From contig NZ_JALCCV010000010.1 of NCBI RefSeq assembly GCF_022640935.1, forward strand, positions 1-58,661: a stretch of 58,661 nt of DNA, in the 5' to 3' direction. The DNA is from Bifidobacterium sp. Lineage in GTDB: Bacteria; Actinomycetota; Actinomycetes; Actinomycetales; Bifidobacteriaceae. Position 1 is the first letter of the stretch. The number at the start of each line of letters is the position of its first letter. The notes under the pieces are model-generated. The model searched no databases. It was not told the origin of the DNA and saw only the letters and a list, made by a program, of their open reading frames with translations. The translations under genes were made by a program, and so were the position numbers. This document shows, one piece after another, positions 39,058 through 47,161 of this stretch.

Positions 39058-39816
39058 GTGCCATCTTTTTTCCAGTGGTCTCTCGTCTGGGATTATCTCC
39101 CACGCCTTATAGCCGTACTGCCGGTCACGCTGGCGATCGTTGGCGTGGCAACGATCGTCGGTTTGATCCTGGGAGTGTTCATCGCCTTCCTGCGGGTCGA
39201 AAAGGTTCCGGTTCTCAGCCAGATCGCCGCCGTATTCGTCTCGTTCATCCGAGGCACGCCTATTCTGGTGCAGCTGTACATTGTATATTACGGCGTACCG
39301 ATGGTCGTGCAGGCCGTATCCGGTGCCGATATATCCTCATGGAATAAGATCATCTTCCTGTATATCGCCTATGGCCTGAACACGGCCGCCTTCCAATCAG
39401 AGACGATCCGCTCGGCCATCCTGAGCATCCCCGCCAACCAGATCGACGCAAGCATCGCCTGCGGACTCACCAAGCCGCAAATGTATATGAAGGTCATCCT
39501 TCCGCAGGTCGTCAGGATCGCGATGCCCGCCTTCGGCACCACCACAATCGGACTGCTGCAAGATACATCGCTTGCCTTCACCATCGGCGTCGTCGATGTC
39601 GTAGGCAAGGCGAAGGCGCTGGGTGCCGCAAACTTCCACACCATGGAAGGCTATGTCGGGGCCGCATTCCTGTTCATCATCCTGAGCTTCGTTCTTGAAC
39701 GCGTGTTCGCGGCGATCGAGCATCGCATGAGCTTCGACACGCGAATGGCACCAGCCGCGCGCAAGTCATTCTTCACGCACCTGCTCTGGTTCGGGGCACA
39801 GCAGCAAAAAGCCTAA
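39058..39816 (+). CDS. Polar amino-acid ABC transporter permease (first)
   Basis: The 252-residue HisM/YecS-type permease has five hydrophobic segments. The family's first-domain pattern is clear (LPRLIAVLPVTLAIVGVATIVG, then FVSFIRGTPILVQLYIVYYG), and the EAA loop reads SIACGLTKPQMYMKVILPQV. It forms the membrane channel with a second permease and contacts the ATPase through the EAA loop. GTG 39058 is set by AAAGGAG 7 bases upstream; the ATG at 38965 would run through the inverted repeat. It opens the cluster. Confidence 0.93.
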   Translation: MPSFFQWSLVWDYLPRLIAVLPVTLAIVGVATIVGLILGVFIAFLRVEKVPVLSQIAAVFVSFIRGTPILVQLYIVYYGVPMVVQAVSGADISSWNKIIFLYIAYGLNTAAFQSETIRSAILSIPANQIDASIACGLTKPQMYMKVILPQVVRIAMPAFGTTTIGLLQDTSLAFTIGVVDVVGKAKALGAANFHTMEGYVGAAFLFIILSFVLERVFAAIEHRMSFDTRMAPAARKSFFTHLLWFGAQQQKA

Positions 39817-40010
39817 ACGCCTACACCGCTCTACTGTCAGCCGCTTCGCCGTCGTCTTTTTCCTCGACAGGCTCCGACCGGCAGCGCACCTCGAACCGGC
39901 TATAGTCCGACCACCACGGACTCTCTGAACAGCAGTCAACACCCAACCTCTCATTCCATTCGATATGGCATATGACATCTGGCCACTTCACCGCGAACAA
40001 AGGAACACTC

Positions 40011-44789: not shown

Positions 44790-45680
44790 ATGATACAGGC
44801 ACAGGTGCTTGGACTGCGCAAGCGGTTCGGCGACAATGAAATCCTCAAAGGGGTCTCGCTCAACGTCGACAAAGGCGAGGTCGTATGCATCATTGGCCCC
44901 AGTGGATCAGGAAAAACAACGTTTCTGCGCTGCTTGAACTTACTCGAGGAGCCAGATGAGGGCAGCTACGCGCTCGGCGAGAACGTACGCTGCGACTTCG
45001 GCCATGTCGGCGCGAACCAGCGGCGCATGATCGCCCGCCAGACGGCGATGGTGTTCCAGTCTTACGAGCTGTTCCACCACATGACTGCCGTGCAGAATGT
45101 GATGGAGGGCCTGATCACGCCACGCAAGATGCCTCGCGCCAAGGCGAAGAAGATCGCGACCGACATGCTGGAACGGGTCGGCATGGCCGACAAGGCGGAT
45201 ATGTATCCCGCGCAGCTTTCCGGCGGCCAGCAGCAGCGCGTCGGCATAGCGCGGGCCATGGCGCTCTCCCCCGACTTGCTGCTTTTCGACGAGCCCACCT
45301 CCGCACTCGACCCCGAACTGGTGGGCGATGTGCTCAAGGTGATGCGCGATGTGGCAGACAGCGGCCAGACCATGGTCGTGGTGACCCATGAGATGCAGTT
45401 CGCCAAGGAAGTCGCCGATCAGGTGGTGTTCATGGCCGGCGGCGTCGTAGTCGAAAGCGGCAAGCCCGCTGACATTTTCGAGCATCCGCAGAAGGACGCC
45501 ACATGCAGATTCCTGAGCAATTTCGATTTGGATGCCAGCGACTCTGAGGCCACCCCGTCAGACGGCGATTCGCCGGACGTTCCTGCACCCGAGGTGCCTT
45601 CGTTGGATACCCCTTTGCTGAATACAAGCTCGACTGATACGGATCCGTCAGATGCGGATTCGCCGGAAAGCCAGTCGTGA
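44790..45680 (+). CDS. Polar amino-acid ABC transporter ATPase (second), acidic tail
   Basis: The 296-residue ATPase repeats the motifs of the first: GPSGSGKTT, VFQSYELF, LSGGQQQR, LLLFDEPTSALDPE and VTHEM. Its last 50 or so residues (after SNFDLDA) are a Ser/Asp/Pro-rich, strongly acidic tail not found in the family. It may serve the second permease or replace the first ATPase under some condition. AAGGAGAGG lies upstream. Its stop overlaps the MFS start as GTGA. Confidence 0.94.
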   Translation: MIQAQVLGLRKRFGDNEILKGVSLNVDKGEVVCIIGPSGSGKTTFLRCLNLLEEPDEGSYALGENVRCDFGHVGANQRRMIARQTAMVFQSYELFHHMTAVQNVMEGLITPRKMPRAKAKKIATDMLERVGMADKADMYPAQLSGGQQQRVGIARAMALSPDLLLFDEPTSALDPELVGDVLKVMRDVADSGQTMVVVTHEMQFAKEVADQVVFMAGGVVVESGKPADIFEHPQKDATCRFLSNFDLDASDSEATPSDGDSPDVPAPEVPSLDTPLLNTSSTDTDPSDADSPESQS

Positions 45681-47161
45681 ACGCCAGCATACGAAAACTC
45701 ACACAGGAGAAGGCAACCCAACCACCCGCGGAATCGGCAACGCATGAATCCGATTCGGAGGATTCGACCGATTCCGCTCTGGAAGCCACGTTGGGTTCTG
45801 ATCCGACGATGGATTCTGTAGTCGCTGCAGGCTCGACCAGCTCCGGGACGCTGTGGAATCCGCGTTTCATACTGCTTATGGCGGTCGCCGCGCTGGCTTC
45901 GACGGCCATCACCACGCAAATGGGCACGCTGCCGCTCTACGTGGCTTCGCTTGGCGGCTCTGAAGCCATATCCGGCTTGATCGTTGGCGTGCTGGGGATT
46001 GCTGCGCTCATCTGTCGCTTCCCCATCGGCATCCTGCTGGATCGCTACGGTCGCAAGATCATCCTCGTCTGCGGCTTGGCGATTCTCCTGGTCGATTTCA
46101 CGCTGCTGAACCTATGCAGAACATTGCTCGCGCTGCTCTGTCTGCGCATACTGCAGGGCATAGGCAGCGGCACTGAAACCACGTCGTCGTCGACTATGGC
46201 GGTCGATCTCATTCCGGTCGGCAAGCTCACCGTCGGTTTGGGATACTTCAGCCTCACCCAAGTGGTGCCCGGCGCCTTGGGTCCGCTGCTCGGCCTGACT
46301 GTCGTGGATCTGTTCGGCTTTCAGGCGCTGTTCGTCTTGGGCACTGCGCTGACGGCGGCCGCGCTGCTGCTCAGTCTCTTCATCAAATCCGAAGCCATGT
46401 ATCCGCGCAGAAAACAGCCGAAAACAGCCGAAACACCTGCTGCTGCGCCTTGCACGAAAGCACCCGGGATCTTGGAATCGCAGTCCGGCGCGATGCAATC
46501 GCCCACGCGGACATCCGTCGCGCCACACGGCAGCGCGGCGAAGCCTTCTGCAACGGTCCCCTCCCCGACAGTGCCTCGCGTAACGATGCCCTCGCTGTTT
46601 CTTCGGCCCGGAATCCTCCTGCCCAGCCTGATCATGTTTCTTGTCTTCGGCGCGAATTCGGGCATCACCGTGTTCGTCGCGCAGTTCGCCGTGGAGAGCC
46701 ATATCCCCGCTCCCGGGCTGTTCTTCGTCATGCAGGCGAGCGTCACGTTGCTCATCCGCGTCTTCTTCTCCCCCATGCTGGCCAGATGCAGCCAGAGCCT
46801 AGTGATCGTCGGCAGCATCGTCATGATCAGCGTGGCCTTCATCACCGTCGCCAACGCCTCCGATCTCGGCGTGCTGCTGCTGGCCGCCGTGCTGTGCGGC
46901 GCCGGTCAGGCGAGCTTGCAGCCGATGATGAACGCGCTGGTGCTCTATGGCATTGAACCCGACCAGCGCGGCCAAGTCACCGCGTTGTTCTCCGCTTCGG
47001 CGGATGTGGCCTATGGCGGCGGCGCGCTGCTGTGGGGATGGGTGGCGGGCCTGTGCGGCTTCAGGCTGATGTTCGTCATCTGCGGCTTGTGTTGCGCCCT
47101 GTCCCTGCCCTGCTACGCATGGCTCCGCCTTTTCCGGCGACACCGCGATCTGTTGGCTTAG
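45677..47161 (+). CDS. MFS transporter
   Basis: The 494-residue protein starts with about 55 acidic, Thr/Ser-rich residues, then 12 hydrophobic segments. The MFS motif RFPIGILLDRYGRK follows segment two. The central loop (about residues 240-305) is long and Pro/Ala-rich. It is likely an efflux protein. The GTG start overlaps the upstream ATPase, so it belongs to the same transcript. In this context it could export the 2-hydroxyacid or a toxic analogue; this is inference. Confidence 0.9.
   Translation: MNASIRKLTQEKATQPPAESATHESDSEDSTDSALEATLGSDPTMDSVVAAGSTSSGTLWNPRFILLMAVAALASTAITTQMGTLPLYVASLGGSEAISGLIVGVLGIAALICRFPIGILLDRYGRKIILVCGLAILLVDFTLLNLCRTLLALLCLRILQGIGSGTETTSSSTMAVDLIPVGKLTVGLGYFSLTQVVPGALGPLLGLTVVDLFGFQALFVLGTALTAAALLLSLFIKSEAMYPRRKQPKTAETPAAAPCTKAPGILESQSGAMQSPTRTSVAPHGSAAKPSATVPSPTVPRVTMPSLFLRPGILLPSLIMFLVFGANSGITVFVAQFAVESHIPAPGLFFVMQASVTLLIRVFFSPMLARCSQSLVIVGSIVMISVAFITVANASDLGVLLLAAVLCGAGQASLQPMMNALVLYGIEPDQRGQVTALFSASADVAYGGGALLWGWVAGLCGFRLMFVICGLCCALSLPCYAWLRLFRRHRDLLA

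Follow-up and report, generated by a model that had tools for sequence, protein, structure and literature searches.

What do eight adjacent, same-strand genes in a Bifidobacterium genome do, and do they belong together at all? The genes lie at positions 39,058 to 47,161 of a 58,661-nucleotide stretch of Bifidobacterium sp. DNA (RefSeq assembly GCF_022640935.1, contig NZ_JALCCV010000010.1), which we refer to as the window. In order, they encode a permease (permease A), a substrate-binding lipoprotein, a second permease (permease B), an ATPase (ATPase 1), an aminotransferase, a D-2-hydroxyacid dehydrogenase, a second ATPase (ATPase 2), and a major facilitator superfamily (MFS) transporter. We find that the eight genes are a real conserved unit, and we lean toward the view that this unit imports an amino acid, transaminates it, reduces the 2-keto acid to a D-2-hydroxy acid at the expense of reduced nicotinamide adenine dinucleotide (NADH), and likely exports the acid. 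This route is our best reading of the cluster.

The layout described in an earlier note on this DNA, eight genes on one strand with two 4-base overlaps, agrees with both the list of open reading frames (ORFs) and Pfam. All eight ORFs are on the plus strand; the overlaps fall at 41594-41597 and 45677-45680, and gaps of 106 bases separate the aminotransferase and ATPase 2 from the genes upstream of them. Every assignment scored above its Pfam cut-off, in the order BPD_transp_1, SBP_bac_3, BPD_transp_1, ABC_tran, Aminotran_1_2, 2-Hacid_dh (both domains), ABC_tran, and MFS_1. Permease A starts with GTG at 39058, with AAAGGAGA just 5' of the start, and the binding lipoprotein most likely starts at the ATG at 40011.

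The same note had read these genes as one unit, and their arrangement in other genomes bears this out: the cluster is not confined to this strain and occurs in at least 6 Bifidobacterium and at least 23 other genomes. Our Bifidobacterium survey covered 112 genomes, including that of the window, and host counts from several of these genome searches are lower bounds. Dehydrogenase matches at E ≤ 1e-40 were found in at least 20 of the 112 genomes, 6 of them at ≥60% identity, and aminotransferase matches at E ≤ 1e-60 in at least 7, 6 of them at ≥65% identity and the seventh (G049) at 35%. The close aminotransferases and the close dehydrogenases came from the identical set of 6 genomes, and all 6 carriers share one order for the eight genes; the other 14 genomes, whose dehydrogenase matches were weaker, did not contain the cluster in the stretches examined. 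Among 398 sampled Bacilli, at least 2 had dehydrogenase matches at E ≤ 1e-75. Within the family of one of these, at least 8 of 105 genomes matched, all 8 of them in the cluster, and within its order 395 genomes yielded at least 22 aminotransferase matches (E ≤ 1e-110), 21 of which lay within the cluster. Only the window itself matched in a 297-genome sample of its own order.

At least 29 genomes thus carry the cluster, 26 of them with all eight genes (6 Bifidobacterium and 20 others). The 23 non-bifidobacterial cluster genomes consist of these 20, two without the MFS gene (G418 and G567), and one in which the contig ends after ATPase 2 (G755). Seen from the window, 25 of 29 other genomes that have a close aminotransferase or dehydrogenase and were inspected in detail share the eight genes, with order and strand preserved; the remaining four are the two lacking only the MFS gene, the contig-cut locus, and one with the aminotransferase alone (G652). 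Order and strand are retained down to 40% identity for the dehydrogenase and 49% for the aminotransferase, and permease A is the first gene, with permease B present, in 28 of 28 other cluster loci. Counted from longest-ORF starts, the distance between ATPase 2 and the MFS gene varies between -49 and +129 bases among the 25 other genomes that have both; the overlap of -4 recurs in G756, G828, and G715 but is not generally kept. Because the eight genes form one conserved unit, a joint function is likely.

Term searches of open-licence PubMed Central (PMC) papers found no description of the eight-gene cluster. All 2,773 PLSDB plasmid records matching the dehydrogenase were below 60% identity, which does not support carriage on plasmids, and a scan of genome contigs gave 32 loci at 28 to 36%, with records near the window's genome possibly excluded.

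The dehydrogenase (43703..44683, plus strand) belongs to the NAD-binding, D-isomer-specific 2-hydroxyacid dehydrogenase family, matching PF02826 at 164.3 bits and PF00389 at 55.0 bits, both above cut-off. Residues R231, E260, and H288, which we take to be catalytic, are present in all 29 copies. The known bifidobacterial aromatic lactate dehydrogenase is a member of the Ldh_1 family, and the Ldh_1 model did not match this protein, for which only the two families above were found. A D-type dehydrogenase, as first proposed, is therefore well founded, and from its sequence the enzyme is predicted to make the D isomer with NADH. Matches to PF00056 (Ldh_1_N) number one to three per bifidobacterial carrier (n = 6), with one each in G014 and G101.

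Its nearest relatives are D-lactate and D-2-hydroxyisocaproate dehydrogenases (4xkj, 1dxy, and 2yq4), with which it has in common the fold family, the Arg/Glu/His catalytic set, and a VPxYSP motif. It forms a subgroup with a signature of its own, namely, His109 (29/29), Cys49 (25/29), and Tyr or Phe at 51 (29/29), whereas the position of His109 is Glu in five solved relatives (4xkj, 2yq4, 4prk, 1dxy, and 7jp2). The protein scored 237 bits against the D-lactate dehydrogenase subfamily model NF006374, for which the cut-off is 356. Residue 51 is presumably the position that restricts substrate size in D-lactate dehydrogenase, and a substrate reading drawn from it is ambiguous. VanH-like provision of D-lactate for cell walls was considered and rejected (225 versus 540 bits; no ligase or dipeptidase among the eight genes). 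PMC5589888 describes production of 2-hydroxyisocaproate by Leuconostoc, correlated with HicD enzymes.

The aminotransferase (42462..43682, plus strand) is a pyridoxal phosphate (PLP) enzyme of class I/II, matching PF00155 at 122 bits, above cut-off. Lys240 and Arg372 (protein numbering), which we assume to be the PLP lysine and the substrate arginine, are present in 29 of 29 copies. The nearest solved structures (1x0m, 3aov, 1wst, and 2egy) place it in the LysN/multi-substrate type, a group that includes multi-substrate, kynurenine, and 2-aminoadipate enzymes; membership does not fix the substrate.

A different pair occurs in other bifidobacteria (L070, L071, L073, L074, and L076), with an aminotransferase at 22 to 26% and a D-2-hydroxyacid dehydrogenase at 34 to 37% identity to the cluster proteins. 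Pfam assigns the aminotransferase to class I/II in L070 and L071 and finds an Ldh_2-type dehydrogenase with the pair in L070, L071, and L076. In L071, a GNAT gene, a NIL-domain ATPase, a permease, an NlpA lipoprotein, and metK lie nearby. This type of pair looks like hydroxy-acid salvage around methionine.

Upstream of the enzymes, adjacent SBP_bac_3, BPD_transp_1, and ABC_tran genes identify a polar amino acid ATP-binding cassette (ABC) importer, all encoded on the plus strand: permease A (39058..39816; PF00528), the binding lipoprotein (40011..40838; PF00497), permease B (40887..41597; PF00528), and ATPase 1 (41594..42355; ABC_tran). Against TIGR01726, with a cut-off of 42.2 bits, permease A scored 62.7 and permease B 32.8, which is below it; the two are 25 to 31% identical (13 genomes). 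Two copies of a single ATPase are the rule in this importer family, and the cluster encodes a second one, ATPase 2 (44790..45680, plus strand; ABC_tran), at 51 to 62% identity to the first (13 genomes). In 29 of 29 genomes, both ATPases retain an intact Walker A, signature motif, Walker B, and H-loop that vary only slightly. The residue after the Q-loop, which we take to be the contact to the permease loop in MalK, differs between the two: 28 of 29 ATPase 1 copies have Ala, whereas 26 of 29 ATPase 2 copies have Glu.

We built a tree that combined the cluster ATPases of 12 of the 29 genomes with 20 further ATPases. In it, ATPase 2 forms one clade (support 96), and ATPase 1, ATPase 2, and one other ATPase group together (support 82). 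The sequences look like an old duplicate pair. Both ATPases, which the earlier note had counted, are indeed real and intact. Given the tree and its retention in loci without the MFS gene, ATPase 2 probably belongs to the importer. Since both are kept intact even without the exporter, an importer core of four different subunits is likely, as co-retention, intact motifs, and the differing residue after the Q-loop suggest. Two importers with a common binding protein are possible.

On this basis we envisage the following route. The binding lipoprotein would deliver an amino acid to a core built from two distinct permeases and, probably, two distinct ATPases, and the aminotransferase would then convert the amino acid to its keto acid while forming glutamate (or aspartate). 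Reduction of the keto acid by the dehydrogenase would be near irreversible, and reduction and MFS export together would pull the freely reversible transamination forward. The cell would gain nitrogen and reoxidized NADH and would discard the carbon skeleton. If we had to name the substrate, our first guess would be a neutral amino acid of medium size, from the aromatic, leucine, or methionine class, with cystine or cysteine second.

The MFS transporter (45677..47161, plus strand; GTG start) is efflux-like. Its best match is a broad multidrug model, followed by the metallophore exporter CntE (79 versus 235 bits), both below cut-off, and its weak matches to solved transporters are mostly drug efflux proteins. 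From the position of its gene, we consider it likely to export the hydroxy acid.

A gene for an Lrp/AsnC regulator lies directly downstream in 19 of the 23 non-bifidobacterial loci (read from sequence, with Pfam on one); it is not in three Leuconostoc-like loci, and G755 is cut by the contig end. In these hosts, the adjoining regulator probably tunes the unit to amino acid supply. Upstream of the first gene, at -42 to -54, 8 of the 23 loci (G558, G560, G203, G869, G646, G818, G878, and G896) have an inverted repeat, TTCAGAA-TTC[TA]GA, which is perhaps the operator of an Lrp-type regulator. At L101 (4444-6890), the cluster adjoins a pair of Lrp/AsnC genes and an aspartase-like lyase (PF00206). 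Judged by the starts of the protein sequences, the arrangement is the same in L102 and L103, and L106 has the lyase and one Lrp gene.

An alternative, which we regard as unlikely, is a Tcy-type cystine/cysteine system, in which cystine would enter and cysteine would leave by way of 3-mercaptopyruvate as D-3-mercaptolactate, perhaps against cysteine overload. The solved structures closest to the binding protein are YtmK (2o1m) and Lmo2349 (4gvo), the latter of which we take to be Listeria TcyK, and the Joint Genome Institute (JGI) labels an orthologue as an L-cystine transport system substrate-binding protein; yet the best NCBIfam match of the binding protein is a lysine/arginine/ornithine model, and the ligand-facing stretch reads GNxxxP[YF] rather than the GTQFPN of Tcy proteins. 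A cystine model is the best NCBIfam match of both permeases and both ATPases, but every component falls well short of the cystine cut-offs (binding protein, 72 of 312 bits; permeases, 134 and 118 of 300; ATPases, 303 and 291 of 406). By sequence reading, suf-like genes lie near several loci but are not seen at most other host kinds. The conserved Tyr or Phe at dehydrogenase position 51, if size restricting, would fit a small keto acid.

The direction of the route could also be the reverse, which we hold to be rather improbable: a 2-hydroxy or 2-keto acid would be imported, oxidized by the dehydrogenase, and aminated to an L-amino acid, with the MFS protein releasing surplus or importing. Arg115, Glu110, and Pro204 of the binding protein (protein numbering) are present in all 29 copies, and in an alignment the Pro204 column is Asp in 9 of 12 more distant relatives. 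This Asp is presumably what holds the ammonium group of the ligand, and Pro in its place would be compatible with a hydroxy or keto acid as the ligand, too. The loss of Asp does not exclude an amino acid, however, because YtmK and Lmo2349 also have no Asp in this column and do have the counterpart of Glu110, and the invariant Glu110 could take over the ammonium. According to PMC9239247, Listeria TcyK binds cystine (about 13 µM) and cysteine (about 67 µM), whereas nine further amino acids that were tried did not bind. On the other side, uptake by a high-affinity ABC system makes sense for a precursor in short supply, and L071, where an Ldh_2-type enzyme, a class I aminotransferase, and a D-type dehydrogenase stand by MetN/NlpA-type genes and metK, looks like salvage of a hydroxy analogue. 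Oxidation of 2-hydroxy acids with NAD+ is nevertheless uphill, and the MFS protein resembles efflux proteins. Separate adjoining operons, in which the amino acid ABC importer, the two enzymes, and the MFS pump would each serve a function of their own, are very improbable, for although the two 106-base gaps in the window and the two loci without the MFS gene would fit them, gene order and orientation persist at identities as low as 40 to 50% and beside different neighbors.

Along with Pro204, several observations weigh against import, transamination, and reduction by a single unit. G652 (L143) has an orthologous aminotransferase (54% identity) with no further cluster gene in the surrounding 19 kb, so the aminotransferase can exist alone. 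Two of the 28 other cluster loci lack the MFS gene (a contig end accounts for 1 more), and since these two are otherwise complete, export by the MFS protein is not needed everywhere. ATP-driven import would be a poor bargain if reoxidation of NADH were the sole gain. In the ATPase tree, the ATPase 1 copies do not resolve into one clade. As for regulation, a close Lrp relative was found at E ≤ 1e-12 in none of the 6 bifidobacterial carriers, versus 24 of the 112 genomes; the window contains no known RNA element (riboswitch or T-box); and 15 related loci gave one transfer RNA and no other RNA element at the gathering threshold. A CodY-like box, scored with a consensus in 23 loci, clearly beat shuffled sequences in two (2 and 3 of 300), the rest being at 25 of 300 or more. 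Finally, no observation fixes the substrate or the direction of the route: gene content, gene order, conservation, intact catalytic residues, and phylogeny are established, while we infer the substrate, the direction, export, the make-up of the importer, and regulation.

Protein records with cluster orthologues come from Bifidobacterium apri, B. merycicum, Trichococcus, Enterococcus, and Leuconostoc. Judging from these record names, the non-bifidobacterial hosts appear to be Lactobacillales, with G756, G828, and G715 Leuconostoc-like. In a tree of seven concatenated proteins, the six bifidobacterial copies form one clade (support 100) within the other copies, which makes transfer as a block likely. 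The root was assumed, on the Leuconostoc-like copies, and the direction of transfer is therefore an inference. The idea that the cluster is a bifidobacterial speciality does not hold, as it is rare there (6/112) and its clade is nested in a lactic acid bacterial tree. We tentatively suggest, as a possibility rather than an expectation, that the cluster is a self-contained transferable module, with a four-subunit importer (duplicated, specialized ATPases), both enzymes, and an exporter of its own, that passed from lactic acid bacteria to bifidobacteria.

The flanks differ between hosts, so conservation attaches to the unit rather than to the locus. In the window, the cluster is flanked by a gene of the phosphoglucomutase family, which we read from its sequence as glmM; G030 has prs near the cluster, and G101 has a Cys/Met PLP enzyme there. 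Other flanks, largely read from sequence, have suf-like genes, an aspartase-like lyase, or 3-deoxy-D-arabino-heptulosonate-7-phosphate (DAHP) synthase. The last lies ≤1 kb upstream in 3 of the 23 non-bifidobacterial loci (G418, G567, and G566; Pfam was applied to genes of G418 and G566, and other loci were read by eye) and hints weakly at aromatic amino acids.

Next to the cluster in the window and convergent with it is a second pair on the minus strand: another D-2-hydroxyacid dehydrogenase (47304-48335), best on phosphoglycerate dehydrogenase and glyoxylate reductase models but below cut-off, and a class III aminotransferase (48498-49787), above cut-off for PRK08117. Neither gene was found around the cluster in the stretches examined from the other five bifidobacterial carriers. 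Farther downstream, also on the minus strand, are a zinc-type dehydrogenase (50117-51193) and, near it, a three-domain thiamine pyrophosphate enzyme (53732-55621).

If the proposed route is correct, the module would amount to an Ehrlich pathway in bacteria, contained in a single operon. In the yeast Ehrlich pathway, an amino acid is used for its nitrogen, and its carbon skeleton is reduced and released. The logic of keeping nitrogen and releasing a reduced skeleton would be common to both, whereas the cluster would make a hydroxy acid instead of a fusel alcohol, without decarboxylation, and has dedicated transporters in one operon. It would also provide bifidobacteria with a D-specific way of making bioactive hydroxy acids. 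Hosts distinguish between D- and L-hydroxy acids; according to PMC6532841, D-phenyllactic acid activates human HCA3 with a half-maximal effective concentration of 150 nM and is about 35-fold more potent than the L form. With a D-type route that is conserved and has transporters of its own, the question of which organism makes which hydroxy acid can be tested on a small set of genes.

The known bifidobacterial route is that of type 4 ldh, whose reductase belongs to Ldh_1, whereas the reductase of the cluster belongs to the unrelated D-isomer-specific family. According to PMC8556157, type 4 ldh makes aromatic lactates and has a transaminase gene in the same element. Both systems thus combine genes for a transaminase and a 2-keto-acid reductase, and the cluster, too, is predicted to turn an amino acid into a hydroxy acid; the partners of type 4 ldh given there are the transaminase and a haloacid dehalogenase, whereas those in the cluster include importer and MFS genes. 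The view in the earlier note that this is a different system consequently survives in part: the D-type enzyme and the dedicated transporters are new here, but an aminotransferase beside a 2-keto-acid reductase was already known in bifidobacteria.

The importer invites two further comparisons. Like the Opp/Dpp oligopeptide importers, it probably has two different permeases with two different ATPases, but it belongs to the polar amino acid family, and the retained pair makes testable the idea of an importer of this family running on two different ATPases. With TcyJKLMN/TcyKLMN of Bacillus and Listeria, which include the nearest solved relatives of its binding protein, it has in common a family 3 binding protein and permeases; the Tcy system has one ATPase, TcyN (PMC9239247), whereas the cluster has two, falls below all cystine cut-offs, and would be coupled to keto-acid reduction.

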